Source of the DNA: Halotia branconii CENA392
Lineage (GTDB): Bacteria > Cyanobacteriota > Cyanobacteriia > Cyanobacteriales > Nostocaceae
Length of the DNA: 64,000 bases
Assembly: GCF_029953635.1 (NCBI RefSeq)
Contig: NZ_CP124543.1
Coordinates: 6,170,367 to 6,234,366, forward strand
Reading direction: 5' to 3'
Both the position numbers and the translations under genes were made by a program. The notes below the pieces were generated by a model. It searched no databases. It saw only the letters and a list, made by a program, of their open reading frames with translations, and had not been told where the DNA came from. Of this stretch, positions 37,382 to 53,966 are shown piece by piece; within the stretch, counting starts at the first letter, position 1, and each line of letters opens with the position of its first letter.

Positions 37382-38609
37382 AAAACTTTTCTACGCTTAA
37401 CTTTGACCAAAAAAAACGCGAACGTACCAGCAATACACTAAAAGTGGCAATTCCCAGCAGTACAACTGCTAATTTATTCCCCCAAGTTGATTGTCCAGAA
37501 CCCAGATAATGGGAACCAATCAACACAGCATGAATGACACTCAAAAGCAAAGCTGGCACGCTCAATAAATGAATTTGTCGCCAACGCTTGCCTAAGGATT
37601 TTTGCAATGATTCCCAACTTGTAAAAGCCGCGGGGGTCATTAATATTAATGCTACAGCACCCGCAGCCATACTCCACTGAAAGTCTATTGGCAAGAAAAA
37701 CAAAGCGGCAAAATTCCATTGCAGGGAATGTTCAATCATGTGGGTGGTATGAACCACAGAAAGTACAAAGGCTCCCACTCCCAAAGCGCGGCGGTAACGT
37801 AGAGGCGAAGCCCATAAGCTGCTGATAGGACGAGCAATTAGCGCTAATATCAAACAAATCAATGCAGCATGTCCGGTGTAATCTACCATTGTGTCACCAG
37901 TCCGCAGCAAGGTAATCGTGCCGATGGTGAGTGTAACCCAACCACCTAAGCGAAATAATTGACTACGCCTATCTTTACTTACTAACGAAGTCGAGACACC
38001 TACACCCAGCATAGTAGGTAAAGTTCCCAAACCAAAAGCCAGCATGGTTGCTGTACTCATCCACAAGTTACCAGTTTCGGCGGCTTTGATTTGAGCAATA
38101 TACAAAAAACCACAAGGCATCAAACCCCAAGTCATCCCCAAAAGTATTGGTGTCCACCATTTGGTTTTGAAAGAAAGTTTAATCATGCCTGTACTCAGGC
38201 GATCGTGTAAACTTTTTTGTAATAAAGGATGTAATAGAGGAATCCGAGGCAACCAATTGGGTTTTACTTGTCCCAACCCAAACCAAATCAGCATTACACC
38301 AGTAACAACAGCGATGACGCGGCGAAAGTCACTGCCAACACCCGCTAGTTGTCCACTTTTTATGAAAGCTGAACCTAATGCCCCGATACCAGCGCCAACT
38401 AGAGCATAACTCAACATCCGCCCCAGGTTGAGCAGGATATGAAATTTTAATTGCTGTTGCCAAGATACAGAATTGTCTAAGGAAGATTGTTGTGGAGTCT
38501 TTTGCTGATGAGACAAAGAAAACGCCACTGTTAGAGGACCACACATCCCAAAGCAATGCCCAAAACTGCCTAAGAACCCTAGGATTGTGATCAGCAACAA
38601 ATCTAACAT
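37356..38609 (-). CDS. TauE/SafE family membrane protein with C-terminal ferric-reductase-like helices
   Basis: A 417-residue polytopic protein starting at ATG 38607-38609. The N-terminal half is UreH/SafE-type: LGFLGSFGHCFGMCGPLTVAF (about residues 8-28, with H-C-x3-C that may bind metal), a second Cys-Pro segment GLMPCGFLYIAQIKAAETG and FGLGTLPTMLG. The C-terminal half adds at least five helices with conserved-looking His (SVVHTTHMIEHSL, RQIHLLSVPALLLSVIHAVLIGSHY) that resemble a heme-binding ferric-reductase/cytochrome b-like domain. A longer start at 38681 adds 24 residues and is less likely. Confidence 0.83.
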   Translation of the reverse strand: MLDLLLITILGFLGSFGHCFGMCGPLTVAFSLSHQQKTPQQSSLDNSVSWQQQLKFHILLNLGRMLSYALVGAGIGALGSAFIKSGQLAGVGSDFRRVIAVVTGVMLIWFGLGQVKPNWLPRIPLLHPLLQKSLHDRLSTGMIKLSFKTKWWTPILLGMTWGLMPCGFLYIAQIKAAETGNLWMSTATMLAFGLGTLPTMLGVGVSTSLVSKDRRSQLFRLGGWVTLTIGTITLLRTGDTMVDYTGHAALICLILALIARPISSLWASPLRYRRALGVGAFVLSVVHTTHMIEHSLQWNFAALFFLPIDFQWSMAAGAVALILMTPAAFTSWESLQKSLGKRWRQIHLLSVPALLLSVIHAVLIGSHYLGSGQSTWGNKLAVVLLGIATFSVLLVRSRFFWSKLSVEKFYVPPTKSR

Positions 38610-38729
38610 AAATAACTTAGCGCTCTTTGTAGTCGGAACTTTAAGTGAAATTGCGATCGCTGTCAAAAGACACATCGTCAAACTTGATGTTTACGTTACC
38701 CTAAGTCTGGAAGCCAAGGATAAATTTGC

Positions 38730-39752
38730 ATGAAAAAATGGATTTGGCTAGTGCTGTTTGTACTAGTGGCAATTGCCGTGGTAAATAGTAGGGGTACTGT
38801 CAAAAGTGCGTTTTTTGAGCAGCGTCCTTCGCCAGAAATTGTAGAGAGTATTCCAGCGGCTAAGCCTCAACCACAGATACAAGAAATAAACAATACACCA
38901 CAAGTGTCTACTGACCAGCTATTAGCTCACATCCAAAAATTGAATTTTCAACGCTACACAACAACCGAGCGATCGCTTACTCGCACTTATATCACAACTG
39001 AACTGCAAAAATTCGGTTGGAAACCTCAATTAGAAAAGTTTACTGGTGGCGTTAATATTTTTGCCGAACGACAGGGAACCGACAAAGCAGCAGGAGCAAT
39101 TCTCGTTGCTGCACATTACGATACTGTGGCTTTTTCTCCCGGTGCAGATGACAATGCCAGTGGTGTAGCTGTAGTGCTAGAAGTTGCCCGACTTTTTGGT
39201 TCTCTATCCACTCCAAGGACTTTGCAGTTAACTTTTTTTGATCAAGAAGAAACAGGACTTTTAGGTAGTAAAGCTTTTGTTACCAAGACAGCACGGCTGC
39301 AAAAATTACGCGGAGTCATAGTTATGGATATGGTGGGTTACGCTTGCTACACTGTTGGATGTCAGCAGTATCCCCCAGGACTACCTATTACTCCACCCAG
39401 TGACAAGGGCGACTTTTTAGCAGTAGTTGGAGATATAGAACATTTACCTTTACTGAATACTTTTCAAAACTCACAGACTCTACCACAAGTCTTAAGAGTG
39501 CCTATTCCTCTCAAAGGTTTACTGACACCCGACACCCTACGTAGTGACCATGCCCCATTTTGGTATCAAGGGGTGGGTGCAGTGCTAGTAACAGATACAG
39601 CGAATCTGCGTACTCCCCATTATCATCAACCTAGTGATGTTCCTGCAACCATTGAGCGATCGTTTTTTACCGGGTCAGCGCAGATTGTAGTTAATGCTAC
39701 CACTAAGTTGTTAAAAGAAAACGTGATCTTGAAAACTCAACCACCAAATTGA
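38730..39752 (+). CDS. M28 family zinc peptidase, membrane-anchored or exported
   Basis: A 340-residue protein with an N-terminal hydrophobic anchor (WIWLVLFVLVAIAVV) and an M28 aminopeptidase/glutaminyl cyclase-like domain. The zinc ligands are AAHYDTVAFSPGADDNASG (His about residue 129, Asp about 141), FDQEETGLLGS (Glu pair about 174), and SDHAPFWYQG (His about 273). It likely cleaves peptides outside the cytoplasmic membrane. An AAGGA ribosome binding site lies 10 bases before ATG 38730. Divergent from the TauE/SafE gene. Confidence 0.9.
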   Translation: MKKWIWLVLFVLVAIAVVNSRGTVKSAFFEQRPSPEIVESIPAAKPQPQIQEINNTPQVSTDQLLAHIQKLNFQRYTTTERSLTRTYITTELQKFGWKPQLEKFTGGVNIFAERQGTDKAAGAILVAAHYDTVAFSPGADDNASGVAVVLEVARLFGSLSTPRTLQLTFFDQEETGLLGSKAFVTKTARLQKLRGVIVMDMVGYACYTVGCQQYPPGLPITPPSDKGDFLAVVGDIEHLPLLNTFQNSQTLPQVLRVPIPLKGLLTPDTLRSDHAPFWYQGVGAVLVTDTANLRTPHYHQPSDVPATIERSFFTGSAQIVVNATTKLLKENVILKTQPPN

Positions 39753-39818
39753 CTTTTTTTGAATTGAAAATTGCAATGAGTTAAGTAAGTCGGAGAAATA
39801 AAATCAAACTATGTGAAT

Positions 39819-39908
39819 AAAAGTAAATAAGGCTCAAACTCTTTCTCCCCCTGCCTCCTCTGCCTCCCCTGCTTGCCCAAATGTATCAACTTTAAAGTAA
39901 AACGGTAT
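39819..39908. repeat. 32-bp dispersed repeat copy 2 joined to the end of an ATACC-type element
   Basis: 39819-39850 is the exact reverse complement of 18438-18469. It continues into CCTGCCTCC...CTGCTTGCCCAAATGTATCAACTTTAAAGTAAAACGGTATC, which matches in reverse complement the left end of the element at 60999-61178. So two repeat types are joined here. Confidence 0.85.
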
Positions 39909-41107
39909 CAGAGGTCTACTGGAGTAGCAATACCGCATTTAACTAGTCCTGCTTCCAATTCTTTAATGAATCTCATATCTTGCTCTAACAAAGGTTGAGT
40001 TTCATTAACAACAGAGTCACCACTTATAGAAAATTGTCGCTTGAGAAAATTGAATGCTTGCTGGAATTGATGAGGATTTGCCTTTATTGGCGAGTCAAAG
40101 TGACAGGGAATAATCTGCTGGAAATTCCAAGTAGCGACCTTGTCTACCCAGTTAAGTACTTGCTGTGGCGCTTGGGGAAGAATTAAAACTTGTAGAATCG
40201 GTGCTACAAATGGACGACCTCCACCTCGTAAGGCATCAAAAGACTGTTTCCAGTTATCTTGCCATCGAAATGGAAATAAACCGCAGTAAGCCTTGAGTGA
40301 CTTTTGTGGCGCTTTGAGAGCATCACAAAACATTTGCCCCAAACCTGTAATTTTTAGTACGCTGGGACGAAAGAAAACTGCAAATAAGGAAATGCGTTGC
40401 CATCCCTGGCGACGGTTAAGTTGATTATCCTCAATCGCTTCAGAAGCATTGTTTCTGGCATGAAACAATAAAGGATAGGGATCTAGTTGGTTAATTGCGG
40501 GTGGATCTTCTGGTACAGATAATATACTATCCGTTAAGAGTAGAGTGTGCGATCGCTTGTGAAAAACTGCAACTTCTGCAAAAGATCCTCGCCCCAAATC
40601 AATGTCTAATACAGCATATTCAAACTCATCAGCAAAAGGTGCTTGACTACTATCTTCTGGAAGTACTTGGGTGCGTTTTTGAGGAAAACCTAGCCAACTC
40701 AGGGGCAAAGTTAGTGGAAAACTCCATTGATGCGGTGCAATGAATACTTGTGCTTGAGAAAAGCATCTAGCGAAAGGACCGACAAATATTTTGTGTTCTA
40801 AACCAGAACTTGTCGGCAAAATGATGTACTTAACATCTCCGTGCTTGGCAACCAACTCCTTAACTAAACGAATACATTCAATGGTTGGTGCTACAGGTGC
40901 ATAAACAAAAAGCCCGCCTGCTTCTAGCTTAATTACAGTCATCCGAATTGGCACGATGGTATAGAGAATGCCGTGCAACTGCTCAAATGTCCAAATAGTA
41001 TCCTTAACAATTTCTAAGCAAAGTGTACGACGTTGACTGTAGGGATAAAGTGGTAAAGCAGGCCAAAACGGCCATAACCAATCTTGAGAATTAGTACTAG
41101 ATTGCAT
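39908..41107 (-). CDS. DUF4336 domain protein (metallo-beta-lactamase-like fold)
   Basis: A 399-residue cyanobacterial/plant-type DUF4336 protein: WPFWPALPLYPYSQRRTL near the N-terminus, YIILPTSSGLEHKIFVGPFA (about residues 90-109), LLTDSILSVPEDPP (about 185) and IIPCHFDSPIKANPHQF near the C-terminus. DUF4336 is related to metallo-hydrolases, but most His ligands are not in the usual HxHxD form here, and no function is known. I prefer ATG 41105-41107 (MQSSTNSQD) over 41146, whose extension is charged and lies in low-complexity DNA. It follows pcxA by 88 bases. Confidence 0.87.
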   Translation of the reverse strand: MQSSTNSQDWLWPFWPALPLYPYSQRRTLCLEIVKDTIWTFEQLHGILYTIVPIRMTVIKLEAGGLFVYAPVAPTIECIRLVKELVAKHGDVKYIILPTSSGLEHKIFVGPFARCFSQAQVFIAPHQWSFPLTLPLSWLGFPQKRTQVLPEDSSQAPFADEFEYAVLDIDLGRGSFAEVAVFHKRSHTLLLTDSILSVPEDPPAINQLDPYPLLFHARNNASEAIEDNQLNRRQGWQRISLFAVFFRPSVLKITGLGQMFCDALKAPQKSLKAYCGLFPFRWQDNWKQSFDALRGGGRPFVAPILQVLILPQAPQQVLNWVDKVATWNFQQIIPCHFDSPIKANPHQFQQAFNFLKRQFSISGDSVVNETQPLLEQDMRFIKELEAGLVKCGIATPVDL

Positions 41108-41195
41108 CGATTCTGGTTGTCGTTTTTCTTTTGGTTTATGCCCCATGCCCGATTTCCTATACCCGAAAACTCCATCTTCTTAAGGGTAGAGTTTT

Positions 41196-42410
41196 TCATT
41201 CATCCATTTCTTTTAATGTAGCTAATGCTGAAGGAGATAACCGACTGAGATAACGGAATATCCAATATTTGAATATAGTATCTAAAATTACTGGAAAGGT
41301 AGCAATAAACATAAAGATGATGCTTCTATTGGCTTCAAGACCTAAATGTTGTGCCAACCCGTCTAAAATTACTTCCCATCCATGTGGTGAGTGAAATCCT
41401 ACAAATATATCTGTGAATAAAATAATTAAAAAAGCTTTGGCGCTGTCGCTTAAACCATAGACAAGAGTATCAATAAAGGATTTGACAACCACAATTTCTC
41501 TTTTACTCTTAGCAATTACTATAGCAAAAGCAATTAATGAGAGCAAATCAGCAAAAATATTGCTAACAGCATTACTACTTTTATGACGAAATACTTCGGC
41601 TATTTCAATTGCTTTTTCTTTGATGCTTTCTTTTATAGCCTCTGACGAAATTGTTGGAGACTTATAAAGTAAACTTTCTAGTCTCAGCTTTTCTTGAAAG
41701 ATATTTAATTCATCTAGAGCCTGATCTTCCATTTCAGAGTTGAGGAAAATTTGACTGATATTATCACCTCTAATGTTTTCTACTATAGGATTAATTAAAA
41801 TTCTTTTAGATAGTTGATGTGTTAAGAGTGGTACAATAATTAAAGTTATCAAAAATTTTAAAGCCGTCCTAGTACGATTTCTAGAAATTCGATAATTCTT
41901 GATAAATTCTTCTTCTGCTTCGGGCGTGAAATCTGTTTTAATTTTATTAATTGTTCTGCCAATAGATCTAGGTAAGACTCCGGTTTTTTGAGAAGGAGGT
42001 TCAATCTTATCATTTAGATTAGAAGAATCAAACTGTTGCTCAGCTTCACTAGTATTATTTTTTATAGTTTTCGGAAAAGACACTAATGTACTGTTTTTAA
42101 TTAAATTATATTTCCAGGTATACTTTTCTATTACTTCATCAATAAATTTCAACTTTTCTAATACAAATGACTCAGAAAGATTGAGAATTGAACGGCTCAA
42201 TTGAAATTCTGTTAGTCTGATTTGAATAATAGTTAAATTTTGGTCAAGATATCCCTGCCAATAAGACATAACATTTTCAGTATAATTTGCTGATTTAGCA
42301 GATATTTTTTGATTACCAAAATGTTCTCTTTCGATATTTCTAATGACTTGAGCAGCATTGTATGCTTCTAGAAGCGCTCTTTCTGGTGTCTTCAAAAACC
42401 ATTGATTCAT
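41196..42410 (-). CDS. pcxA: Proton extrusion protein PcxA (CemA/CotA family)
   Basis: A 404-residue inner-membrane protein. The N-terminal soluble region has WFLKTPERALLEAYNAAQ and SYWQGYLDQNLTIIQIRLTEFQLSRS, a signature of the cyanobacterial PcxA family. The C-terminal half has four hydrophobic helices (FLITLIIVPLLTHQL; VSNIFADLLSLIAFAIVIAK; AFLIILFTDIFVGFHSPHGWEVIL; FMFIATFPVILDTIFKYWIF), as in chloroplast CemA. PcxA drives light-dependent proton efflux linked to carbon uptake and acid acclimation. The start at ATG 42408-42410 is supported by an AAGGAA motif upstream; ATG 42431 is the alternative. Confidence 0.93.
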   Translation of the reverse strand: MNQWFLKTPERALLEAYNAAQVIRNIEREHFGNQKISAKSANYTENVMSYWQGYLDQNLTIIQIRLTEFQLSRSILNLSESFVLEKLKFIDEVIEKYTWKYNLIKNSTLVSFPKTIKNNTSEAEQQFDSSNLNDKIEPPSQKTGVLPRSIGRTINKIKTDFTPEAEEEFIKNYRISRNRTRTALKFLITLIIVPLLTHQLSKRILINPIVENIRGDNISQIFLNSEMEDQALDELNIFQEKLRLESLLYKSPTISSEAIKESIKEKAIEIAEVFRHKSSNAVSNIFADLLSLIAFAIVIAKSKREIVVVKSFIDTLVYGLSDSAKAFLIILFTDIFVGFHSPHGWEVILDGLAQHLGLEANRSIIFMFIATFPVILDTIFKYWIFRYLSRLSPSALATLKEMDE

Positions 42411-42509
42411 TGTTACTTGTTTCCTTTTCATTTGTTTTTGATCTGGTTTAATACCACTCCAGATACTAAGTAATGAAGAACCTAAATTTTTATACTTTAC
42501 TAGTTTTTT

Positions 42510-44144
42510 CTATTCCCTGTTCCTTATCATTTGCATACATGTCTGATAAACCTTGACAGCACGATCGATGCCCTTGAAACGATGATCTCCCATTTCCTGG
42601 AAATCCGATGACTTTGAAAGCATTATATAAGTAGCTTCACTGATCACGCATTCGCTAGGAGGACAAACAGCTTCCATACGAGCAGCAAGATTAATCGTAG
42701 CTCCTAATGCTGTGTAGTCAACCCTCTGAGAACTACCAACATCGCCGACAACAGCTTTACCACTATTAATTGCAATGCGTAATTGTAAGGGTTCGTGCCA
42801 AAAACTGTTAGCATTGAGACGTTCAAGACGAGTGAGCATTCCTTTAGCAGCTGCGGTTGCGCGATCGGCGTGATCTAATTGTGGTTCTGGAGCGCCAAAA
42901 AATGCCATAATACAATCGCCAATATACTTATCTAAAGTGCCACCGTAGGCAAACACTTCTTGCAACATCTCTTCAAATAAATTATTTAACAATTGAGCGA
43001 TCGCAGTTGGTGTTAATCTTTCAGAAATCGCCGTAAAGCCAACCAAATCCGCGAACAAAATACTGATTTCGCTTTCTGCGGGAGCTAAACGACCATCTGG
43101 TAATCCCCCTACAGATATTAACTGCTGTACAACAGATGGCGAATGATAGCGTTCTAGTCGGTGACGAATCACCTCTTCAGTTTTGAGTTTTTCTGCCAGC
43201 AGCCAACGTTGGACACTAGAAGCTACAAGATTTGCTAAAGCCGAAAAAAAGCTGAGTTCTTCCTCTCCTTCATTTGCCCAATGGTAAGAAGAAAGATGAG
43301 CATCGGCGTAGAGAACACCAACAACTTTATTTTCATCCCATAAAGGCACAGCCATAGCACTGCGAATACCTTTAATCAAAATACTATGTTCCCCAGAAAA
43401 CCGTTCATCTTTATGGGTGTCAGCGGTTTGCAGGGCTATTTTTTCTTCAAATACTTTTTGACAGATACTCCGACTAATCCAATCACCATCAGCAGCCAAA
43501 GATTCCTGCTCAGAAACATCTCTAGTACCAGCATTCACCAACTCTAACTGACCACACCCACCAACATCAATTAATAATGCCAGGCGGTCAATACTATCGA
43601 GATAACGAAAAACGACTTGTTGCACCTGGGAAAAAATCTCTTCTATAGATGCTGCTGCACAGAGGTTTTTGGCTATATCTACTAGGTCTTTAAGACGGGC
43701 AATAGTTTTGTCTTTGTTGCTGGTTTCGCCATCTTTGCCATCGGCTTCTATCCATTGCTGTTGCAGTTGTTTGACATTACGAAAAATTGTTTTTGGCTCA
43801 GAAGCTTCTGATAATACAAAATCCTTAGTCATAAACTGTGTAGCAGGATTGGCAAATAACACTACCAAATTCACATTTCCCAGCCAAACAATATCACCAT
43901 GATGTAACTCTTGGGCATGACTAACAAGACATTGATTCACTTGTGTCCCGTTTTTGCTCCCCAAATCCTCAATATTCCAAACTCCATCAGCCGTTTTGAC
44001 TAGCCTAGCGTGCTTACGAGAAACTCCTCCAAAAGGTAAGTACAAGTCACATTCCGGTAAACGGCCAATTGTGAACTCATTTTGATTCACTGTCACCGTT
44101 GTTTCCGTATCTCCCTGTTTTAGCCGCAATGTGAGTTCAGTCAT
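42510..44144 (-). CDS. FHA-GAF-class III nucleotide (adenylate) cyclase
   Basis: A 544-residue signalling enzyme. Residues 1-95 form an FHA phosphothreonine-binding domain (FTIGRLPECDLYLPFGGVSRKHARLV, GSKNGTQVN). Residues 145-315 are a GAF domain (ICAAASIEEIFSQVQ..., GVLYADAHLSS). Residues 355-540 are a class III cyclase: metal-binding ILFADLVGFTAISERL and KYIGDCIMAFFGAP (Asp pair, with a Lys typical of adenylate specificity) and VDYTALGATINLAARME. It probably makes cAMP in response to a GAF-bound ligand and a kinase-dependent FHA partner. Followed by pcxA after 100 bases; co-transcription is possible. Confidence 0.94.
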   Translation of the reverse strand: MTELTLRLKQGDTETTVTVNQNEFTIGRLPECDLYLPFGGVSRKHARLVKTADGVWNIEDLGSKNGTQVNQCLVSHAQELHHGDIVWLGNVNLVVLFANPATQFMTKDFVLSEASEPKTIFRNVKQLQQQWIEADGKDGETSNKDKTIARLKDLVDIAKNLCAAASIEEIFSQVQQVVFRYLDSIDRLALLIDVGGCGQLELVNAGTRDVSEQESLAADGDWISRSICQKVFEEKIALQTADTHKDERFSGEHSILIKGIRSAMAVPLWDENKVVGVLYADAHLSSYHWANEGEEELSFFSALANLVASSVQRWLLAEKLKTEEVIRHRLERYHSPSVVQQLISVGGLPDGRLAPAESEISILFADLVGFTAISERLTPTAIAQLLNNLFEEMLQEVFAYGGTLDKYIGDCIMAFFGAPEPQLDHADRATAAAKGMLTRLERLNANSFWHEPLQLRIAINSGKAVVGDVGSSQRVDYTALGATINLAARMEAVCPPSECVISEATYIMLSKSSDFQEMGDHRFKGIDRAVKVYQTCMQMIRNRE

Positions 44145-44600
44145 GAGTGTGGTATGTCTATTCTGAAAATTGGGGGCGCAAGCATCTCTATAAGTAAGGG
44201 ATACGCAGGGTGAATCCTTTACCTCTTCTTTATGACACTGTTAATGGCATTACGACAACTGCCCGTAGTAAATATTACATTTTCAAATATGAGTTACTCG
44301 ATATTTTGAGTTTGCTGTGCCAGTAGTGTAGTCTGCTTCCGGTTGAGTAAGACTATGAATATAAGCTGCCGTGCTGATAAATTGCACTTTTTATGGTCTG
44401 GAACCCTTATTGCAACGAGAATACTATGGAAAATTAAAGATGCAACAGCTTAGTATTCTCAATAGGACTTACGCAAAACTATTTGCGTAAGTCCTGCTCA
44501 AAAAAAGAGTTTGGGTTCTAGAATAACACTAAGTTACTCAAGCTTATAGCAATTTTAAATACTCATTTGCTCAAAACCTAATCTAACAAAAATAACGTGT
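44145..44600. other. Intergenic region upstream of the DUF488 unit
   Basis: About 455 bases without a gene. It contains the 32-bp mini-element (44464-44495) and AT-rich DNA that must hold the promoter of the two-gene unit. No clear -10/-35 pair could be fixed. Confidence 0.55.
44464..44495. mobile_element. Minimal MITE-like palindrome, copy D
   Basis: Perfect 14-bp arms AGGACTTACGCAAA and TTTGCGTAAGTCCT separated by ACTA. These are the ends of copies B, C and E joined without the interior. Confidence 0.9.
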
Positions 44601-45422
44601 ATGGAACGGAGAAAAATCTTAATAGCGACAAAAACTTATCCTTCAATAAGCATTAAATATAAAGAGACTGTATGTACAGCAGGAATTTTATTAGACAATG
44701 ATGAAAATCCCTTGCAATGGGTTCGTATTTATCCAATTAGATTTCGAGAATTAGAAATTGATAAACGCTACCCCAGATGGAGTATTATTAGTGCTGAAAT
44801 TGAAAAAAATGATAAAGATTATAGGACAGAAAGCTTTCGGCTAATAGATACTTCAATTGAAGTTATTAGAAAAGTTAGTACTGAAAATAACTGGGCAGAA
44901 ATAAAAAAAATTATCTTGCCTTTTAAATTTAGATCTCCTAAAGAAATCCAAGAGCAAAAAAAATCTTTAGGTCTTATAAAACCTTTGAGTATAGAGAAAT
45001 ATTTCTGTAAACCTACAGAAAGAGAATGGAGTCCTAAACAGCAAGCAATACAAGATCAACTGGAGTTGCTTGATTTACTAGAACCATCTAATCCTATGTC
45101 AAATCTTGAAAAAATTCCTTACAAATTTGGTTATAAATTCACCGATGATGATGGAATTAAACATGAATATAGTATAAGCGATTGGGAAATTATGCAATTG
45201 TATAGAAACTGTAGAAATAAATCAAATTTTACTGATTTAGAATCACGAGAAAAAGATGCTTTGGAAAAAGTCAGGCAGAAATTAGAAGACAGCTTCATGT
45301 ACGAGAAAGATTTACATTTTATTATTGGTAATTTAAAAAATCATGCAAATAGCTTCATGATTATTGGTCTTGTATATCCACCTATAGTAAAATATGAACA
45401 GATAAGTCTTTTTCAAATATAA
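44601..45422 (+). CDS. Unrecognised protein partnered with DUF488
   Basis: A 273-residue soluble protein of unknown function. N-terminal features are KILIATKTYPSISIKY, ETVCTAGILL and LQWVRIYPIRFRELE (about residues 25-50), with a single Cys and the W-V-R-I-Y-P core. The middle is Lys/Glu-rich and helical. The end has HFIIGNLKNHANSFMIIGLVYPP, which pairs well with the N-terminal core as if closing a beta sheet. I recall similar proteins next to DUF488 genes in other bacteria but no assigned activity. The stop is only 3 bases from the DUF488 start, so the genes form one unit. It is far more AT-rich than neighbours and lacks GCGATCGC, suggesting horizontal acquisition. Confidence 0.8.
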   Translation: MERRKILIATKTYPSISIKYKETVCTAGILLDNDENPLQWVRIYPIRFRELEIDKRYPRWSIISAEIEKNDKDYRTESFRLIDTSIEVIRKVSTENNWAEIKKIILPFKFRSPKEIQEQKKSLGLIKPLSIEKYFCKPTEREWSPKQQAIQDQLELLDLLEPSNPMSNLEKIPYKFGYKFTDDDGIKHEYSISDWEIMQLYRNCRNKSNFTDLESREKDALEKVRQKLEDSFMYEKDLHFIIGNLKNHANSFMIIGLVYPPIVKYEQISLFQI

Positions 45423-45425
45423 AAA

Positions 45426-45863
45426 ATGGTCAATACAGAATACAGCAATAAACATGATGATTCAGATAAATTCATCTTAACCTTTGGTTATGGTAATAGA
45501 AATACTTATGATGAATTTTTTGCTTATTTAAAAGATTTTCATGTCATTTGCGTTGTTGACGTTAGATTAAATCCTCGTGCTTGGAGCCGTAAATGGTACG
45601 GAGAGATAATAGAGACAGTTTGTTGTAAACAAAATATCAACTACATTTCTAAAGTTTCTCTAGGTAATACATCAGGTAATAATAATTGGGCTCCTCCTGA
45701 TTATCAAGAAGCGGCTATTGCACTACAAGAGATTTCAGAAATAGCCCAAGTCGGAACTATTTTGCTCTTATGCGCTGAAAAGAACTCATGTCGTTGTCAT
45801 AGGGTAGATATTGCACAACAACTACAAAAGCTAGTAGATAGGAAGATCAAACATTTAGAATAA
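45426..45863 (+). CDS. DUF488 family protein
   Basis: A 145-residue protein with the DUF488 hallmarks: FILTFGYGNRNTYDEF at the start (the TIGHSN-like strand), VVDVRLNPRAWSR (DVR motif, about residues 37-49), and LLLCAEKNSCRCHR (about residues 117-130) with the conserved C-x-E and C-H-R. DUF488 proteins have no established biochemical role; the Cys and His residues suggest a nucleic-acid or redox/metal function. It begins 3 bases after the upstream unrecognised gene and is followed by a strong terminator, so the two genes form a complete two-gene operon. Confidence 0.88.
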   Translation: MVNTEYSNKHDDSDKFILTFGYGNRNTYDEFFAYLKDFHVICVVDVRLNPRAWSRKWYGEIIETVCCKQNINYISKVSLGNTSGNNNWAPPDYQEAAIALQEISEIAQVGTILLLCAEKNSCRCHRVDIAQQLQKLVDRKIKHLE

Positions 45864-45907
45864 AATGTTACTTTGATATTGAATTAAGTTATTAGCACAA
45901 ATTTATG

Positions 45908-45943
45908 AAAAACGAGTTATTTAAAGATGACTCGTTTTTTTTT
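45908..45943 (+). terminator. Rho-independent terminator of the DUF488 unit
   Basis: A 10-bp stem AAAAACGAGT / ACTCGTTTTT with a 12-base loop, followed by more T residues. It lies 45 bases after the DUF488 stop codon. Confidence 0.87.
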
Positions 45944-46035
45944 ATAAACTAAACAGAGTTTATACTTTCTACCTACTGCCTCAAAACCTGTAACTTTATA
46001 CTTCATACAAATAAAAACTAAACTGCTACAAGTAG

Positions 46036-46620
46036 TTACCGTATCAATGGATTTTTTTTCTGTGCTGCTGAAATGATAGTTTGTTCAATTCTCTTTAACC
46101 TAGTCTCTGGACGTTTTGCACTGTCAATCCAAAATAAAATATTCTTCTTTAATGAATTACTAAATGCGTCGAAATTATGGTTGGCTGTTGCGTTTGCTTC
46201 TAAGGCTTGCTGCAAATCTATGGGAATTGTTAATGCTTCAATTGCATCCAAAGACTTCCATGAACCATTTTCTTTGGCTACTGTAATTTTTTCCAAACCT
46301 ATTTCAGTCATCAAGCCTTGTGCAATTAACTCTTCAATATATTGTTTGTTTAATTTTGACCATACACTTTTCGGTTTACGAGGTGTGAAAATTTGCTGAT
46401 AACGGTCTTTATCTAATGATTTGATTTTACTATCAATCCAACCAAAGCATAGAGCTTCTTTGACTGCTTCGCTGTATTTAACGCTTGGTTTACCGCTTTT
46501 GACTTTGTAGTAAATCAACCATATACCAATAGAGGTGAGATGATTCTTTTTTAACCATTCTCGCCATTCTTGGCGATCGCTAGCATAAATAGTTTCCAGT
46601 TGGTCGTCAAATTTTGGCAT
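46036..46620 (-). CDS. YdeI/OmdA-like protein
   Basis: A 194-residue protein of the YdeI (OmpD-associated/bacteriocin-protection) family: REWREWLKKNHLTSIGIWLIYYK, SVKYSEAVKEALCFGWIDSK (about residues 40-60), FTPRKPKSVWSKLN and a C-terminal RPETRLKRIEQTI. These motifs define the family, whose function is poorly known and which is sometimes annotated as protecting against peptides. The ATG at 46618-46620 (MPKFDDQLE) follows AAGGA by 9 bases; an earlier start at 46650 overlaps the preceding gene's stop. Co-directional with the acetyltransferase just upstream. Confidence 0.9.
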   Translation of the reverse strand: MPKFDDQLETIYASDRQEWREWLKKNHLTSIGIWLIYYKVKSGKPSVKYSEAVKEALCFGWIDSKIKSLDKDRYQQIFTPRKPKSVWSKLNKQYIEELIAQGLMTEIGLEKITVAKENGSWKSLDAIEALTIPIDLQQALEANATANHNFDAFSNSLKKNILFWIDSAKRPETRLKRIEQTIISAAQKKNPLIR

Positions 46621-46643
46621 TACCTGTTTCCTTAAAGTCGAGA

Positions 46644-47165
46644 TTAGCAAAGATTCAGACGATAAATAAGTTCATCCGAAAGTTTTCCTTTGACAAATTC
46701 TGCATCTTTATTGGCTTTATGCAGCTCAAAACCTAGCTTCTCCAGCACCTTACGAGAAGCTAGGTTTTGCTCGTTCACAGAAGCGTGTAATATGGGAAAA
46801 TTAAAACGCTCTTTGGCTAAGGCGATCGCTCTTGAACAATAACCAAAAGCATACCCTTGTTTTTGGAAGTCGGCAAAAGTCATAAAGCCGATTTCTGCAT
46901 ATCCATCATCGAAAATACCGATTTCAACAACTCCAACAAACTGGTGTTGTGGGAGTATTGCAACCCACTTTAACCAGGTCATTGTGTTATTGTCGGGCGA
47001 TTTTTCTAGGGCGGCGAACTGATACTTTTGCTTTAGTTGCGAGAACGTCGGTATCTCTTCTTCTAGGTACTCGTATAATATCGGATTGCTCAGATGAAAG
47101 TACAGCAAATCGGCGTGATATTCCGTCACCTTTTCTAAGTGCAAGTTTACCCCAGCTTTCTCCAT
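46644..47165 (-). CDS. GNAT family N-acetyltransferase (RimJ/RimL-like)
   Basis: A 173-residue acetyltransferase. It has the RimL-type N-terminus LEKVTEYHADLLYFHLSN, a WVAILPQHQFVGVVEIGIF strand pair, AEIGFMTFADFQKQGYAFGYCSRAI (motif A) and SVNEQNLASRKVLEKLGFE (motif B). It probably acetylates a small molecule or a protein N-terminus. It is followed 23 bases later by the YdeI-like gene in the same direction. Confidence 0.9.
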   Translation of the reverse strand: MEKAGVNLHLEKVTEYHADLLYFHLSNPILYEYLEEEIPTFSQLKQKYQFAALEKSPDNNTMTWLKWVAILPQHQFVGVVEIGIFDDGYAEIGFMTFADFQKQGYAFGYCSRAIALAKERFNFPILHASVNEQNLASRKVLEKLGFELHKANKDAEFVKGKLSDELIYRLNLC

Positions 47166-47192
47166 GTCAAGACGACTATTTTGGAAATATTA

Positions 47193-48659
47193 TCACAGTA
47201 AATTTTCACCACGTCGATAAATTTCACGGGCGTAATCAGTCCAAGCGCCTTGTCCCCAATACCGGAAACAGCTAGTTTGCAGCAAAAGATTATACAGCAG
47301 AGCATGACGATATTTAGATGAATCCGTTGGCAGCAATTGATCGAGTTTTTGATGAAATAAACTGCTGAATTGATTCATTGGAGACAAAACATTTTCATAT
47401 CCTTGTACCCAACTGATATGATTCGTCCACGAAGCACCATCAACATGGAAATTAGAATTGCTTTGTTTTAATTCTGCAATGGCATTTTCTACTGCTTCAG
47501 GTTGCAAATTTTCTAATGAAACTTGCTGCCAAATTTGGTGTTGTCCTGCTGGCTGACAAGTTGGGTAATCTTCTGGTTTACAACCAGCTGCTTCAATCAA
47601 TTCTAAATATTCTGTACCACATACCCCAACAACACCGGATTTTCCTCCGCCTTGATTAGCCATCTCATGCCAAGCTTGTTTGAAAGCACCGGGAAATTCA
47701 TTCATCATCACCCCACCATTTTCGCCATCACCAATTTGACTGACGATTGGTGGGATCAATACATTACCTACTTGTTGTGGAGATAAAGTTTTGGCTTCAT
47801 AGTATGGTTGCATCTGAGCAACTAATTTAGTATCTGAACCTTGGGTTTTAATCAAAGCTGTGATGCTAATTGTTTCACCTTGGGAATTACGGGCAATTAA
47901 ACGGTGTGGTAAATGTTTGTGACTAATTGGTTGACCTGTAAGAGTTTCTATAGAATGTTCTTGTACAAGTAGCCAACGATATCCACATTCTTTTAAGGCT
48001 TTGACAAATTCAAATAAAGTATCAGGGTGATTTGGCAGGTGCATTTCTGGAGGAGAAAAACCTTTAACTCGTGCCAGTGCAGACCAACCAAAAATTGCTG
48101 CAAAATATTGTTGCCATGCTAAGATGTGCAATTTAATATCTGGTATAGGCGTGGAAGGAATCACGGCATGACTCCACATTGTACCCAACCACTCTACATA
48201 AGGTTGATAGGTGGGATCGCAAGTGATGCGCTTGAGGTTGTCTAAAATATCAACCCGTCCCATTTGTCTGAGTCCCCATAAAAGATTGCCAGAGTAATCC
48301 AACATCACACGGGGATTGCAACCTTGACTGACGAGTTCGGGAATAAAGTCTCCCATGCGACTATAACAATAGGCAAAAGGCCCGGCGTTGTGGTTATCTC
48401 CTTCGTTGGGATGTTCAAACATGTATTGCAGATTGCTAATCAATCCACCGTCACCTCCCGCAGGGATAGTTGGTTGATGCATGTGCAAAGCGATCGCAAA
48501 TACTGCTTTAATATCTTCTAAGCGGATATTCGTTGAGGGTAAGAATACGGGCGCATCCTGGTTAACAACGGCGAGTACTTCTGTTTCTTGACCAGAAATA
48601 TTTGGCAAGCCATCAATGATTTCGGGCAAAGAAGAAAGAGTAGCAGGTGATGAAAGCAT
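47193..48659 (-). CDS. Glycoside hydrolase family 57 protein
   Basis: A 488-residue GH57-type protein: AIALHMHQPTIPAGGDGG (about residues 35-52) near the start, the VMLDYSGNLLWGLRQMG region, PEMHLPNHPDTLFEFVKAL and the catalytic-fold segment DGENGGVMMNEFPGAF (about residue 305). GH57 enzymes act on alpha-glucans (amylase, branching enzyme or 4-alpha-glucanotransferase). Here the substrate is probably glycogen-related, but it is not settled. Stops just upstream of the acetyltransferase gene (27 bases). Confidence 0.9.
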   Translation of the reverse strand: MLSSPATLSSLPEIIDGLPNISGQETEVLAVVNQDAPVFLPSTNIRLEDIKAVFAIALHMHQPTIPAGGDGGLISNLQYMFEHPNEGDNHNAGPFAYCYSRMGDFIPELVSQGCNPRVMLDYSGNLLWGLRQMGRVDILDNLKRITCDPTYQPYVEWLGTMWSHAVIPSTPIPDIKLHILAWQQYFAAIFGWSALARVKGFSPPEMHLPNHPDTLFEFVKALKECGYRWLLVQEHSIETLTGQPISHKHLPHRLIARNSQGETISITALIKTQGSDTKLVAQMQPYYEAKTLSPQQVGNVLIPPIVSQIGDGENGGVMMNEFPGAFKQAWHEMANQGGGKSGVVGVCGTEYLELIEAAGCKPEDYPTCQPAGQHQIWQQVSLENLQPEAVENAIAELKQSNSNFHVDGASWTNHISWVQGYENVLSPMNQFSSLFHQKLDQLLPTDSSKYRHALLYNLLLQTSCFRYWGQGAWTDYAREIYRRGENLL

Positions 48660-48801
48660 TTCTGATTGCTCCGAAACAAGGTATATCTAATTATGCGATC
48701 GCAGTAGCAATCTTGATTTTTAATATGCATTACTCAACAATCCCACGACTTTTAACCGTAGGATTGCCAGTTTTAACACTCCTCATCTATGAATTTCACG
48801 C

Positions 48802-49683
48802 TTAGAACTTCCGTGCAGAGACAAAATGAGCCATGTTTCTAGAAAAACCAAAATCGCTAAAACGTTGGATTTTACTCCAGAAACTCAGTTTTTGCTGAGG
48901 TTGTGGTCGTCTTGGCGCTGGCGGAGTTGCTATATGTAAAATCAACTCTAGCAACCAAGGAGCTAAACGTTGACACCACACAGCTAAATGACTTTGCCAT
49001 CCTACTAAAATTTCTGGTGCATCATTTTGTAATCCAATGATCAATGCTTGCGCTACTTTTTGGGGAGTCATGGGGATCACCCAGCGAAATAATTTCAAGT
49101 CGCGCACCATGTCTGTATCTGTCAAAGAAGGCAGTAATGCTTTGACCTCAATGTTGTGTTCTGCTAATTCGCGCCGCAAGGCTTGGGTAAATCCTAAAAT
49201 GGCAAACTTCGTAGCAGAATAAGTCGCCATTGTCGGTGCGGCTACTTTCCCCATCAAGCTTGATACGTTCACAATTGTCCCTTGTTTTTGACTAGCCATG
49301 CGTCGAGCGATCAGACTAGTGAGGGTGTACATTCCCAATAAATTCACAGAGAGTTCTTCTTGAACTTGGGGGAGTTTTGAACGCAAAAATGAAGTTTGAT
49401 ATGCGACTCCTGCACAATTCACCAAAAGATGAATCGGCCCATAATTGCGCCATAGTTGGGCAATGGCTATATTGACTTCAGCTGTACGAGTCAAATCGAT
49501 TGCTAATATCGTCGCTTGGACACCCATCGCTTCGATTTCATTGGCTACTTCAACCAACTTTTGGCGATCGCGTGCTACTAATATCAACCGCTGCATTCTT
49601 TGTTGCGCCAATTCCAGCGCGATCGCTCTGCCAATTCCACGAGAAGCCCCAGTAATTAGGGCAACTTTACCTTGAATATTCAT
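48802..49683 (-). CDS. Short-chain dehydrogenase/reductase
   Basis: A 293-residue SDR with the NAD(P) motif TGASRGIGRAIA (about residues 11-22), NCAGVAY, the catalytic Ser in NVSSLMG (about 141) and YSATKFA (Tyr about 155, Lys about 159). An extra C-terminal tail (about residues 240-293) includes hydrophobic and Pro-rich parts (HIATPPAPRRPQPQQK), which suggests membrane association as in some lipid-active SDRs. Substrate unknown. Confidence 0.9.
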   Translation of the reverse strand: MNIQGKVALITGASRGIGRAIALELAQQRMQRLILVARDRQKLVEVANEIEAMGVQATILAIDLTRTAEVNIAIAQLWRNYGPIHLLVNCAGVAYQTSFLRSKLPQVQEELSVNLLGMYTLTSLIARRMASQKQGTIVNVSSLMGKVAAPTMATYSATKFAILGFTQALRRELAEHNIEVKALLPSLTDTDMVRDLKLFRWVIPMTPQKVAQALIIGLQNDAPEILVGWQSHLAVWCQRLAPWLLELILHIATPPAPRRPQPQQKLSFWSKIQRFSDFGFSRNMAHFVSARKF

Positions 49684-50561
49684 CGGTTTTCACCTCCATA
49701 ATCTCAGCCTTACCGCATTTTTCGTCTTGCATCCTGGGTCAGGTAAGACAAATCAATCAACATGAAAATAAGCCTTTGGCAACAAAATACTCTTGGGCTA
49801 ATCTGCATTGCTCATCCAAATCAAATTAGCCGCATTTCCCAGATTGAAAATTAACACTTCACGCCGTTAGTTTGGATGGATATAGCTCATAGGTTTTACC
49901 TCTCTTTAGATTTAGAGCGCTCACCAGTATCGCTGCCAAACACACGCTAACAATTAAATCAAGAGATTGCAATATTTTTTAATAAGTATTTCTTAATACT
50001 TGTTAACAAACAGTATATATATAAGCAACGGTTTGAGAAATAAGTTTTTATAAATAGCGGCTGGATAAATTTAGAAGTTTCCTGACAATCAGCCTAAAGG
50101 TATGCAAAAACCTGAAAAATTGTCATCCCTAAGTCATAGTTGAGACGCAAAAAAGTTATATAGTTTTGGAAACTTTATAGAGCAAATTGTCGTCAGCAGA
50201 TTTACTGAATTTATATAATTAACATTTCCAGTCATCCCATGAGGAATTTGTTGATTTTGAAACAACAGATACAAAATTAGGCAAGCTATGCAATTTTTAT
50301 CGGTGCAATCTTGTTAAATACTCTTATAAACTTTTATCTTGGCGTTCTTGGCGTTCTTGGCGGTTCGTTTATTTACTTTGTGGCGATCGCACTTTCATCA
50401 AGGGCTATTAATAGCAGTTAATCAATTTTATTGATTAGGGTATTTTAAATTTTATTTAGTAGGTCGTTCAACATAAATCACCATTAGTCAGCTTGAAAAG
50501 AAATGAGCCACAAATAAATGTGAGAATCTCTTACTTAACCTATAGCTATTTGTGAACAACA
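49684..50561. other. Large intergenic region, no gene seen
   Basis: About 880 bases of AT-rich DNA with stops in all frames, upstream of the SDR and downstream of the lipoprotein gene. It contains a GGCGTTCTTGGCGTTCTTGGCGG mini-repeat at about 50341-50364 and one GCGATCGC. I see no RNA gene. Confidence 0.55.
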
Positions 50562-50594
50562 AGATCCCCGACTTCTCAAAGAAGTCGGGGATCT
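50562..50594. repeat. Strong hairpin AGATCCCCGACTTC / GAAGTCGGGGATCT (copy 1)
   Basis: A perfect 14-bp stem (50562-50575 with 50581-50594) and a TCAAA loop. A degraded relative is at 59621-59652 (AGATCTCCGACTTC...GAAGTCAGGGATTT), again preceded by AACA, so this is a dispersed hairpin. It lies about 70 bases beyond the stop of the lipoprotein gene and may stop transcription. Confidence 0.88.
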
Positions 50595-50659
50595 GAACCT
50601 CTCAATTTTCATACTTTCAAGTAATGGATTGATCCCTGATATGATTACATCAAAACTGC

Positions 50660-51103
50660 TTATTTAGCAGCACAGTAACCTTTAATCTCCTTAATTATTG
50701 CAGTTTCCTCGTTAGTACTCTTTTTCAAGGATGCTAAAAATTTATTTGCAGCGGGGATATTTTTTTTATCTATAGCTATGGCTGTCTGGTTCAAATTCCT
50801 GCTACTGTCTTGATAAAGTTTAAGAAATCGCCCCTGAAAGCTTTGCAGTTTTTCATCTTTGATTTCGAGTGCTTTCATTTGTGTAGCTATTTGGTCTATT
50901 TTAGTAGCAGTTTCAGTTAAGCCTTTAGTGCTTTTTGCAGACTGAGAATTTTTGCTAAGTTCTTGACCTAAGACAGTTGCCTGATTTGCAACTTTGATGA
51001 GTTTATTACATTGGACAACTTTACTTTCACCACAACCAGTAAATAACAATGCGATCGCAGCAGCAAATAAAAGTATAGCAGTTCTTTTAAGTATACTTAG
51101 CAT
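50660..51103 (-). CDS. Small lipoprotein, unknown function
   Basis: A 147-residue protein with a signal peptide (LLFAAAIALLFTGC; lipobox LFTGC, Cys about residue 23) and a helical mature part. Its repeated T/Q/K-rich helices (TETATKIDQIATQMKALEIKDEKL, NQTAIAIDKKNIPAANKFLASL) read as an antiparallel helical bundle or coiled coil. A CNK near the start and a C-terminal GYCAAK may form a disulfide. The ATG at 51101-51103 is chosen because it directly begins the signal peptide. It is 55 bases downstream of the penicillin acylase-like gene and may be co-transcribed. Confidence 0.78.
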   Translation of the reverse strand: MLSILKRTAILLFAAAIALLFTGCGESKVVQCNKLIKVANQATVLGQELSKNSQSAKSTKGLTETATKIDQIATQMKALEIKDEKLQSFQGRFLKLYQDSSRNLNQTAIAIDKKNIPAANKFLASLKKSTNEETAIIKEIKGYCAAK

Positions 51104-51157
51104 TTTTTCTTTGACACTCCGCATTCTTAAATTGATCCCCGGATTCAGCAACGCCGA

Positions 51158-53677
51158 TTATTGAGGAATCAACCTCAATTTTGCAACATTATTAATTTGC
51201 TGTTTCCATAGCATTGGGTGATATTCAATCTTACGCCAGGGATCAACCAGATCCGTGTAATGTCTATGGAAAGCATGACCTGATTGTCCAGGAGTATGAA
51301 CAGCGAGGGAGTTTTCCAGATTCCCCAAATCTACTATCATCCGCATAGAAGGAATATCAGTTACTGCAAAAGAAGATTGGTCTGCCTTCCAGCGGTTAGC
51401 ATTTAGGGTTTCCCCATTCCCCGCAGTTATAAAAGCACCACGATTAAATAAAGCTTCAATCGGTGCAACTCCAGATTTGCCTAAAGTTGCATTGCGAAAA
51501 GTAATAGTGTGCAGCTTACCCCAATGCCAATTTTTTGGGTCTTTACTTTGTAGGTGTTCTAATTCATCTACTGCTTCGATGAAAGCTTGTTGTAGAATTT
51601 GATCCCGGTTTTCAACTTTTGGAGTGTTGCGATGATCCCACCAAATGCTATTGGGTTGTTTAACAATATTTTGGATTACAGCATACCAGCGATCGCCTCC
51701 GTCAGGAAAGTATTCTTGCGGCAACTGATCGTGGAAGGTATCTGCTAGCAAGTGCTGCCAAAATGTTTCAAACAAAGCAGCAGCAGGTGATGTCATTTCT
51801 AGTTGTAAATCCCAATCCAGCAGTAATTTTCGTGCTGCTTCCTGACGGGGTGTATTTAAAGAGATTGCTGGCAATAGTGGGATTAATGTTTGTGCATTCA
51901 GGGTTTGATTGTCGCCTTGCATCTGTTGTATATAAGCAACAGAAATAGGTTGAGTTTGCTGTTCTAGCATTTCAACAATACGCTTGGCACGGTAGCCATA
52001 AACCCAATCAGTAGTAATTAAGTAAGGATATTCACGAGCAACTAAATTATTAGCGGTAGCAATATAACCTTGAGATGGATTAAAACTTGTAGGTAACTGC
52101 TCAAAGTCTATATAACCTTGCCACTCGTAAGCATCTGTCCAACCAGGAACGGGATAGCGTCCTTGCCCCTTAGCCCGGATCGGAAATTTTCCAGGCATAA
52201 GGTAGCCAATATTACCTAAAATGTCAGCATAAACTAAGTTTTGCGAAGCAATATCAAAGTTGCTGGCAGCCGCCCGGAACTCTTGCCAATTTTGGGCGCG
52301 ATTCATTTGGAGAATTGCATATACCAGTTTTGAAGGTTCTAAGGCTGTCCAGCGTAAAGCAACAGCATAGTTTTGTGGTACTTCTACTTGTTGATTTTGG
52401 TTAAACTGCTTGAGATTGGGTGAAACATCCGAGAGAATTGGTCCGTGTCGAGTGTAGCGAATTGTTTGGGTAATCGGCTGGCTGTCGGCAACTTTTAGTG
52501 TCTCGTTAACAAGTTGCATATCTACCCATTGTCCATTTACTTCGTACTGATTGGGGTTATTAGGATTAATTTTTTCGATGTATAAATCCATGACATCCGC
52601 TTGTGCATTAGTGACACCCCAAGCAATGCGATCGCTATGACCAACAATCACCCCTATCATCCCCGCAAAAGAAAAGCCAGTGACGTTATAGGGACATTCG
52701 GTATTTTTTGGGGTGCAATGCAGACCAATCTCATACCAAATGGAAGGCAGCTGCACAGCTAAGTGAGGATCATTCGCCAGAATTGGTTTACCTGTAGCTG
52801 TGCGTTGACCTGAGATCACCCAACTATTTGAGCCGACATTAACTCCGGTTTTACCAATGAGTTTTTCTAAAGCGGTGATTGGTTTGGTAATTGATTTGAG
52901 AGAAGCTATAGCTTCAGTTGGAAAGGTGGGGATCTGGGTTGATAAATTTAAGTTGTTTTTTGTATCTACTGAAGACTGAGGCAAAATTACAGGTAAATCT
53001 TGAGGATAGGGTGGAAAAAGTTCTTCTACTTGAAATGGTGTGAGGGTTTTGAGCAAGATAGTACGTTCAATTTCTCTTTGGAAATTTCTGCCCAAGTCGT
53101 AAGCCATCACCTTACCCCAAGTGAGGGAGTGTAGGGGTTGCCAAGGTTCTGGTTTGTATCCAGGATTAAGCAACTTTAGTACAGCATATTCTAGACTTAA
53201 TGCACTGCCTTGATGCTTTGCCAGATAAGCATTAACACCATCAGCATAAGCTTGTAAGTTGGACTTTATCTGTGCATCCATTTGTTGGATTTCTTGTTTA
53301 GCGATCCCCGCCCAATTCATTGTTCGCAGATATCGATCAGTTTCCACTTGAGAAGAACCAAACATTTCTGCTAGTCGCCCAGAACCAATGTGTCGCCAGA
53401 AATCCATTTGCCAGAAACGATCTTGGGCGTGAATATAACCTTGCGCCATGAACAAATCATGGGAATTGTCAGCCCAAATGTGAGGAATACCCCATTTATC
53501 GCGCTGGACTGTGACTTCAGCCTGAATTTTGGGTAATGCGATCGCCCCACTTTCTACAGGAAAGGAACGCCGTACACTATAAATAATAAATCCTACCAGC
53601 GATAGCCCCACTATTAGCAGCACAACTAAAGTAACTTTCAGTCCCTTTCGCAACCAACGTTTTTTAGGGCTTTTCAT
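51158..53677 (-). CDS. Penicillin acylase family Ntn hydrolase (AHL-acylase-like), membrane anchored
   Basis: An 839-residue S45-type enzyme with an N-terminal membrane anchor (VTLVVLLIVGLSLVGFIIYSV). The alpha chain has RDKWGIPHIWADNSHDLFMAQGY. The autocatalytic site is in VGSNSWVISGQRT (nucleophile Ser after Gly, about residue 285), after which the new N-terminal Ser is the catalytic residue. TNNLVAREYPYLI and DPWRKIEYHPMLW occur in the beta chain. Known members cleave penicillin G or acyl-homoserine lactones; a Nostoc acylase (AiiC) of this type degrades quorum-sensing signals. The ATG 53677 start is preferred to GTG 53701. Confidence 0.93.
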   Translation of the reverse strand: MKSPKKRWLRKGLKVTLVVLLIVGLSLVGFIIYSVRRSFPVESGAIALPKIQAEVTVQRDKWGIPHIWADNSHDLFMAQGYIHAQDRFWQMDFWRHIGSGRLAEMFGSSQVETDRYLRTMNWAGIAKQEIQQMDAQIKSNLQAYADGVNAYLAKHQGSALSLEYAVLKLLNPGYKPEPWQPLHSLTWGKVMAYDLGRNFQREIERTILLKTLTPFQVEELFPPYPQDLPVILPQSSVDTKNNLNLSTQIPTFPTEAIASLKSITKPITALEKLIGKTGVNVGSNSWVISGQRTATGKPILANDPHLAVQLPSIWYEIGLHCTPKNTECPYNVTGFSFAGMIGVIVGHSDRIAWGVTNAQADVMDLYIEKINPNNPNQYEVNGQWVDMQLVNETLKVADSQPITQTIRYTRHGPILSDVSPNLKQFNQNQQVEVPQNYAVALRWTALEPSKLVYAILQMNRAQNWQEFRAAASNFDIASQNLVYADILGNIGYLMPGKFPIRAKGQGRYPVPGWTDAYEWQGYIDFEQLPTSFNPSQGYIATANNLVAREYPYLITTDWVYGYRAKRIVEMLEQQTQPISVAYIQQMQGDNQTLNAQTLIPLLPAISLNTPRQEAARKLLLDWDLQLEMTSPAAALFETFWQHLLADTFHDQLPQEYFPDGGDRWYAVIQNIVKQPNSIWWDHRNTPKVENRDQILQQAFIEAVDELEHLQSKDPKNWHWGKLHTITFRNATLGKSGVAPIEALFNRGAFITAGNGETLNANRWKADQSSFAVTDIPSMRMIVDLGNLENSLAVHTPGQSGHAFHRHYTDLVDPWRKIEYHPMLWKQQINNVAKLRLIPQ

Positions 53678-53739
53678 CGGTGGGTGTCGTGAATTAATCA
53701 CGCGACATTATACAGTTTTTGGGGCATGGAAAAGAGGCA

Positions 53740-53842: not shown

Positions 53843-53966
53843 CCCCTAGTCCCTAGTCCCTATATTTTGGATCAGATTTACTGATTTTACAGTTGTGGCG
53901 AAAATAACTGTCCAATACAAGGGTTAGATGGGATGATAAGATAACTTAAAAAAAGGAGAACAATTA

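Follow-up and report, generated by a model that had tools for sequence, protein, structure and literature searches.

The window, by which we mean the whole stretch of 64,000 nucleotides of Halotia branconii CENA392 that was analysed, carries on its plus strand two small genes with a gap of 3 bases between them, as the original prediction had described: gene 1 (44601..45422, 273 aa) and gene 2 (45426..45863, 145 aa). On the same strand they are followed, at about 45902..45948, by a terminator-like hairpin and its U-run. The terminator proposed for the pair is absent from the list of a simple terminator scan, though folding bears it out: the hairpin is stable (MFE -15.7 kcal/mol, z -6.7) and none of 200 shuffles folded equally well. 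Comparison by blastn with the closest intact relative, a locus of Richelia sinica (L002, 85%), gives the extent of the whole homologous unit: the upstream stretch, the two genes, and the terminator (44502..45948, plus strand), with no flank matching beyond. The high A/T content noted earlier is real for gene 1, whose GC content of 0.292 is the lowest of the window's 48 called ORFs (their mean is 0.402, with an sd of 0.039); for gene 2 it is 0.336, and the GC3 values are 0.20 and 0.23, respectively. As a sign of foreignness, AT-richness alone is weak evidence because the gene at 41196-42431, presumably encoding a PxcA/CemA-like proton-extrusion protein, is almost equally AT-rich (GC 0.307). The absence of the GCGATCGC octamer from the pair, also offered as a clue, says nothing because 19 of the 60 inter-site gaps (59 sites in the window) are longer than the 1263 bases of the pair. 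An argument for foreign origin from base composition or octamer absence was thus rejected, the one being weak and the other uninformative.

Both genes have been catalogued before. In PADLOC-DB 2.0, gene 1 corresponds to PDC-M19B (PDLC04508, E 8.3e-72, residues 1-268) and gene 2 to PDC-M19A (PDLC04505, E 1.4e-12, with profile positions 142-292 of 294 matched); the two products are called M19B and M19A below. Judged by these profile matches, the pair is a catalogued, uncharacterised phage-defence candidate of PADLOC, namely PDC-M19, and the earlier label of an undescribed system has to be dropped. PMC12988326 traces the PDC systems to a guilt-by-embedding preprint. Gene 1 also matches PHROG 25907 (E 2.5e-53); its Pfam scan yields no family at E up to 1, DuOB included, and its single NCBIfam match is far under the cut-off. 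Gene 2 is a stand-alone DUF488 (PF04343, E 4.8e-14, 53.5 bits against a curated cut-off of 22.2). A sequence search for solved relatives returned none at E <= 0.01 for either M19B or DUF488. The literature searched, with preprints outside its scope, contained no mention of PDC-M19 and no published function of the pair, which does not establish absence from print.

Gene 1 is patchily distributed: it is present in 3 of 60 relatives, in 16 of 386 sampled cyanobacterial genomes, and in 24 of 72,556 plasmid records (including plasmids of rhizobia, Streptomyces, and Sulfolobales), of which 11 are typed as conjugative. It also occurs in 57 IMG/VR viral contigs and in 7 of 50,697 phage records, all of them Gordonia phages (Eviarto, BatStarr, TimTam, Nymphadora, and Herod); two other queries returned the same records. 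In phage Eviarto, the pair consists of genes 43 and 42 (the latter encoding the DUF488 protein) and comes after the immunity repressor gene 44, with an integrase three genes farther on. When positions 36000-54000 of the window were compared with 14 related cyanobacterial loci, DNA similarity never extended outside 44502-45948, and therefore the unit itself is mobile. The idea of a compact mobile unit is thus upheld by the plasmid and viral-contig homologues, the patchy occurrence among genomes, and the confinement of similarity to the unit. The loci L002 and L003 have flanks in common with each other. Of 40 relatives, 29 retain the neighbouring gene at 42510-44144 (E <= 1e-60). No clean empty site was found beside the pair: in the four relatives inspected (roughly 7 to 9 kb of flank towards the pair), there is no match beyond 44282. 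Decayed copies exist as well: the M19B gene of L018 is interrupted by several stops, and in L012, with 92% DNA similarity to the unit, the 5' part of M19B is unmatched and the DUF488 gene is matched.

To describe the pairing, 110 loci were collected, from which we dropped the 18 without a full-length, single-frame M19B (L003, L012, L014, L015, L018, L019, L021, L039, L040, L041, L061, L090, L092, L093, L094, L096, L097, and L110); the other 92 were reduced to 69 at 80% identity. Thirteen of the 18 dropped loci retain a nearby DUF488. L019 is a sub-hit of L018, and the dropped loci without a nearby DUF488 are L015 (a 22-residue match) and L041, L092, and L096 (near contig ends). The 69 counted loci, which come from chromosomes, plasmids, and viral contigs, were all collected by similarity to gene 1; L021 had come in through a DUF488 search and was excluded. 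Taking as adjacent any DUF488 ORF within 400 bases of the gene-1 homologue, DUF488 adjoins gene 1 in 67 of the 69 non-redundant full-length loci. The earlier statement that this pairing recurs in other genomes is correct; as a rule, that DUF488 follows directly is not, since it lies downstream in 12 of the 67 adjacent loci, being upstream in 31 and convergent in 24. The two exceptions are the Sulfolobus plasmid pSOG2 and a plasmid of Natronococcus; neither record contains any DUF488. The trees of the two partners correlate (r 0.56 over 67 pairs, against a maximum of 0.148 in 1000 shuffles). Operon inertia would hardly account for a linkage that persists in three different gene orders.

No third conserved gene was found within 5 kb in at least 3 of 68 loci, except for apparent phage structural genes, and none of the ORFs in the 110 loci is a fusion of M19A and M19B. 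On the viral contigs, the 149 neighbouring proteins of 40 loci include integrases, repressors, terminase, portal, and Mu-like genes among 25 of 79 Pfam families; the best 25 of 159 PADLOC families for the same proteins are all methyltransferases with 2 members each, a count made with no control set. Five related viral contigs (L058, L065, L081, L088, and L089) carry the pair beside the same terminase- and portal-like genes, in the fashion of a moron. Other neighbours are more local. On the Sulfolobales plasmids pSOG2 (L026, 5852-6358) and pBEU9E1 (L099, 4864-5355), a small, 60% identical protein is encoded 3' of M19B; by eye it looks like a PD-(D/E)XK nuclease, with no Pfam support. A HEPN/Toprim-associated gene stands next to the pair on a Pseudomonas plasmid (L023, 7446-8744). 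The genome of the window itself has a second, different DUF488 protein on a smaller contig (L021, contig C2, 25399-25626), belonging to DUF488-N3a (PF22751, E 5.9e-12), with no M19B within the 3.2 kb examined.

The AlphaFold2 model of M19B, built from 53 sequences, reached a pLDDT of 93.5 and a pTM of 0.89, its C-terminal tail being less certain (block means of 77 and 58). The best fold matches in the PDB were RPA (8oej, E 9.5e-5) and the baculovirus protein LEF-3 (7yny, E 1.4e-4, prob 1.0), followed by HIN-200 domains, telomere-end proteins, PriB, and RecO. LEF-3 also came first in a viral structure library, in which phage single-strand-binding proteins ranked lower (E 0.06-0.12). The OB matches have query-normalised TM-scores of about 0.18-0.37, a range that holds for the multi-OB proteins RPA, LEF-3, and HIN-200 among the top matches, and VIA Z-scores of at most 7.7. 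Because the query TM-scores are low, the model suggests an OB-type assignment for M19B, short of proven membership.

Two short motifs stand out in M19B. The consensus of bacterial sliding-clamp partners is given as QL[S/D]LF or QxxLF, of which positions 1, 4, and 5 matter most (PMC12309361; the consensus also in PMC9690074), and B. subtilis PolC is described as having QLSLF at its C-terminus (PMC12309361). In the alignment of the 69 homologues, an internal motif of this type starts at the column of window residue 153, with Q (62 of 67 sequences), L (57 of 69), and F (57 of 69) conserved in an otherwise variable stretch: the motif columns have entropies of 0.5-0.9 bits, compared with 2.4-3.7 bits for the nine preceding columns and 2.7-3.5 bits for the eight that follow. 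The broad pattern Qxx[LMIF][FLW] begins at this column in 57 of 69 homologues and strict QxxLF in 44 of 69. The window's own copy (codons 153-160, QLELLDLL, 45057..45080, plus strand) is degenerate, with a 3-residue insertion after Q153 and L in place of F. At the C-terminus, the window protein carries QISLF (codons 267-271, 45399..45413, plus strand), which fits QxxLF.

Strict QxxLF, the published form, occurs in the last 14 residues of 34 of the 65 bacterial homologues (14 of 29 at 50% redundancy), against none of 1078 neighbouring ORFs. The broad pattern, which was picked after the tails had been inspected, is found in 41 of the 65, or 48 if its hexapeptide form is included, against 3 and 8, respectively, of the 1078 control ORFs and 6 of 1386 ORFs in another control; shuffled tails gave on average 3.6 matches in 65, with a maximum of 11. 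Tails of the form xxxLF were seen in 45 of 65 homologues and 39 of 1078 control ORFs. A control of internal 14-mers scored 35 of 1177, which we take to be mostly the internal motif. The tail motif is present in one of 105 DUF488 ORFs, and within M19B it occurs in all three gene orders (broad patterns in 7 of 11 downstream, 19 of 24 convergent, and 22 of 30 upstream loci). With a slightly looser internal window, 58 of the 65 bacterial homologues have the internal motif, 48 the C-terminal one, 63 either, and 43 both; counting against the motifs are the 2 that have neither and the 17 that have none in the tail.

The archaeal homologues seem to carry a counterpart. The motif of PCNA partners is given as Qxx[I/L]xxFF (PMC9690074), and the looser PIP pattern Qxx[ILMV]xx[FYW] is present in 3 of 4 archaeal homologues, two of these three sequences being 78% identical to each other, and at the internal site also in 3 of 65 bacterial ones. 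In the linker of the two Sulfolobales proteins, QATLDQY and QATLEQY stand five residues ahead of the aligned column; the Natronococcus homologue ends in QPGLDSF, and that of Haloquadratum lacks a PIP motif and has QAKLF. Taken together, these sequence patterns indicate that M19B carries two apparent sliding-clamp-binding motifs, the first in the linker and the second at the C-terminus. These motifs, the archaeal counterpart, and the three gene orders are new here; we found no report of them in the literature searched, with preprints and most subscription papers outside its scope. Among the literature matches listed, neither a title nor the start of an abstract named a clamp-tethered defence system.

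The hallmarks C-x-E and C-H-R that had been recognised in gene 2 are indeed there. They form a predicted active site (C116-x-E118 ... C124-H125-R126, 45771..45803, plus strand), and in an alignment of 30 DUF488 partners selected from the 67 they are invariant, together with G-Y and D-x-R among others. The fold comparison of M19A was made on a long homologue, L060, not on the window protein; its model has a pLDDT of 94.8, and Foldseek gave no match for it at E <= 0.001. With VIA, the DUF488 half of L060 matched PTP-fold phosphatases (Z 8.1-8.4), among them SsoPTP, PRL-2, and KAP (Z 8.2-8.4; for SsoPTP, 7mpc, Z 8.4 over 112 aligned residues at 3.4 A), and methylases of the CobF/diphthine-synthase type (Z up to 10.4, for CobF). 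On this model, the DUF488 domain seems to resemble PTP-fold phosphatases.

Some M19A partners have additional N-terminal domains. In 23 of 67 this domain was classed as SocA-like, its commonest Pfam family being SocA_Panacea (10 of the 23 at E up to 1, best E 1.8e-4); one such score, for L031, is 15.7 bits against a cut-off of 25.7. The N-terminal half of L060 has as its best fold match DarG of the DarTG complex (7yk3_B, Foldseek E 2.3e-3, prob 1.0; Z 12.4 over 139 aligned residues at 3.8 A, although a Z below about 13 may reflect a common helical arrangement); this chain is named DNA ADP-ribosyl glycohydrolase, and its sequence-profile E is 0.012. Other N-termini are of the HTH type, two XRE and two MerR/excisionase-like, as labelled by eye. 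On two archaeal plasmids (L099, 2939-3988; L101, 5088-6170) a ParB-type domain is fused to DUF488, and an archaeal ParB-fold fusion with DUF488-HTH is described as binding CTP (PMC12704722). The M19A of the window has no SocA-like, HTH, or ParB part, and its Pfam scan lists DUF488 families and no SocA_Panacea (PF13274).

From the observed unit, its mobility, the adjacency in three orders, the structure models, and the conserved motifs, we arrive at a reading to which we give an even chance: the pair would be a mobile two-gene conflict module that acts at replicating DNA against competing elements, with a clamp-hooked M19B and M19A as its enzyme. M19B, as a putative OB-fold nucleic-acid-binding protein, would hook the DNA sliding clamp via its internal and C-terminal motifs, and so may travel along with replication forks or with clamps that have just been loaded. 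M19A, a predicted PTP/rhodanese-fold enzyme with the conserved C-x-E ... C-H-R site, would act on DNA or nucleotide ends presented at the clamp. Clamp binding, DNA binding, and the enzymatic step are what we infer from motifs and models, and likewise the antiviral purpose: the pair most likely would hinder the replication of competing phages or plasmids in the carrier cell or element. The DNA-binding-type N-termini (HTH, ParB) of some M19A partners, the correlated partner trees, and the lack of any other recurring neighbour also favour this reading; against it count the low OB scores, the failure of Foldseek to match the M19A model at E <= 0.001, the degenerate internal motif of the window, the looser motif controls that are above zero, the PIP-like strings in 3 bacterial homologues, and the two archaeal plasmids that have M19B and no DUF488. 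Rather more tentatively, M19B may be an OB-fold sensor that brings a PTP-fold enzyme to the DNA ends at forks, using bacterial-type clamp motifs in bacteria and PCNA-type ones in archaea; the target recognised would be actively replicating invader DNA. The earlier guess of a defence or conflict module agrees with this in that the pair is compact, mobile, recurrent, and a PADLOC candidate; the part that called it undescribed does not stand.

By analogy, the main rival is a toxin-antitoxin system of the SocAB kind, which we consider unlikely. M19B, as the toxin, would then sit on the clamp and stall replication, and M19A would neutralise it, sometimes via a SocA/DarG-like N-terminal domain. It is the chief rival because SocB is described as an inhibitor of replication that uses the usual motif to bind the clamp (PMC9690074, PMC7566177) and SocA as a Panacea antitoxin (PMC8832971). 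The SocA-like domains, with SocA_Panacea as their commonest family, the DarG match of L060, and the HTH-fused M19A proteins, as in autoregulating antitoxins, all speak for it. The SocA-like domain is, however, absent from the M19A of the window and from 44 of the 67 partners, the likeness to DarG is at a level that common helices may explain, and the signature GPV ascribed to Panacea (PMC8832971) occurs in none of 19 SocA-like domains, 8 of the 19 having GP at the site judged by eye to correspond. Furthermore, active-site residues that are invariant in 30 partners are unexpected for a pure antitoxin, and two archaeal plasmids carry M19B without a DUF488 partner.

That the pair serves mobile elements as an aid to replication or repair, with their own OB protein and an end-processing enzyme exploiting the host clamp and without any role in defence, seems distinctly improbable to us. 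Such an accessory function would suit clamp motifs joined to DNA-binding-type folds, the viral contigs with the pair near terminase, portal, or capsid genes, and the plasmid-borne copies, with their conjugative share; the pair is, however, rare in phages (the 7 records above), and it is chromosomal too, where the stretch examined (40-50 kb) shows no obvious mobile-element gene. We think it very improbable that the QxxLF motifs have a target different from the clamp, for instance the DUF488 partner or a protease. Clamp binding by these motifs is a prediction, and the C-terminal one is in the tail, which was modelled with low confidence; against another target stand the presence of two separate motifs of one published pattern within one protein, the confinement of internal conservation to positions 1, 4, and 5, and the PIP-like strings of two Sulfolobales homologues at almost the same place.

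For the reading that we prefer, a mobile conflict module hooked to the clamp, a pair catalogued as a mere defence candidate now has a concrete and cheap test, i.e. the binding of M19B to the sliding clamp. If such binding is real, conflict between mobile elements would be linked directly to the replisome, in bacteria as well as archaea, and DUF488, an old family of unknown function, would gain a substrate context, namely DNA at forks.

Compared with known systems, the pair comes closest to PDC-M19: both proteins of the window match its profiles and adjoin each other, as in that system. They differ from it in that M19B comes first and is followed by a short, stand-alone DUF488 protein, only the DUF488 part of the 294-position M19A profile being matched; the version in the window is a variant of the known candidate. 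DuOB (PF22557) is the most frequent Pfam family among the 69 M19B proteins (matched by 7 with E no higher than 1, the best being 4.7e-4), and the OB-fold matches of M19B would suit it; the window protein is unmatched, and L024, L026, and L027 score 12.0-18.7 bits against a cut-off of 27. Burroughs and Aravind (2023) reportedly place DUF488 in the rhodanese-phosphatase superfamily, within a RapZ-C/DUF488/DUF4326 clade, and the modelled likeness of the DUF488 domain both to PTP phosphatases and to diphthine-synthase-like methylases would fit that clade. With the type VI toxin-antitoxin system SocAB, finally, the family has in common the SocA-like domain on 23 of 67 M19A proteins and a clamp motif on the partner M19B; the M19A of the window differs from SocA in being without that domain.
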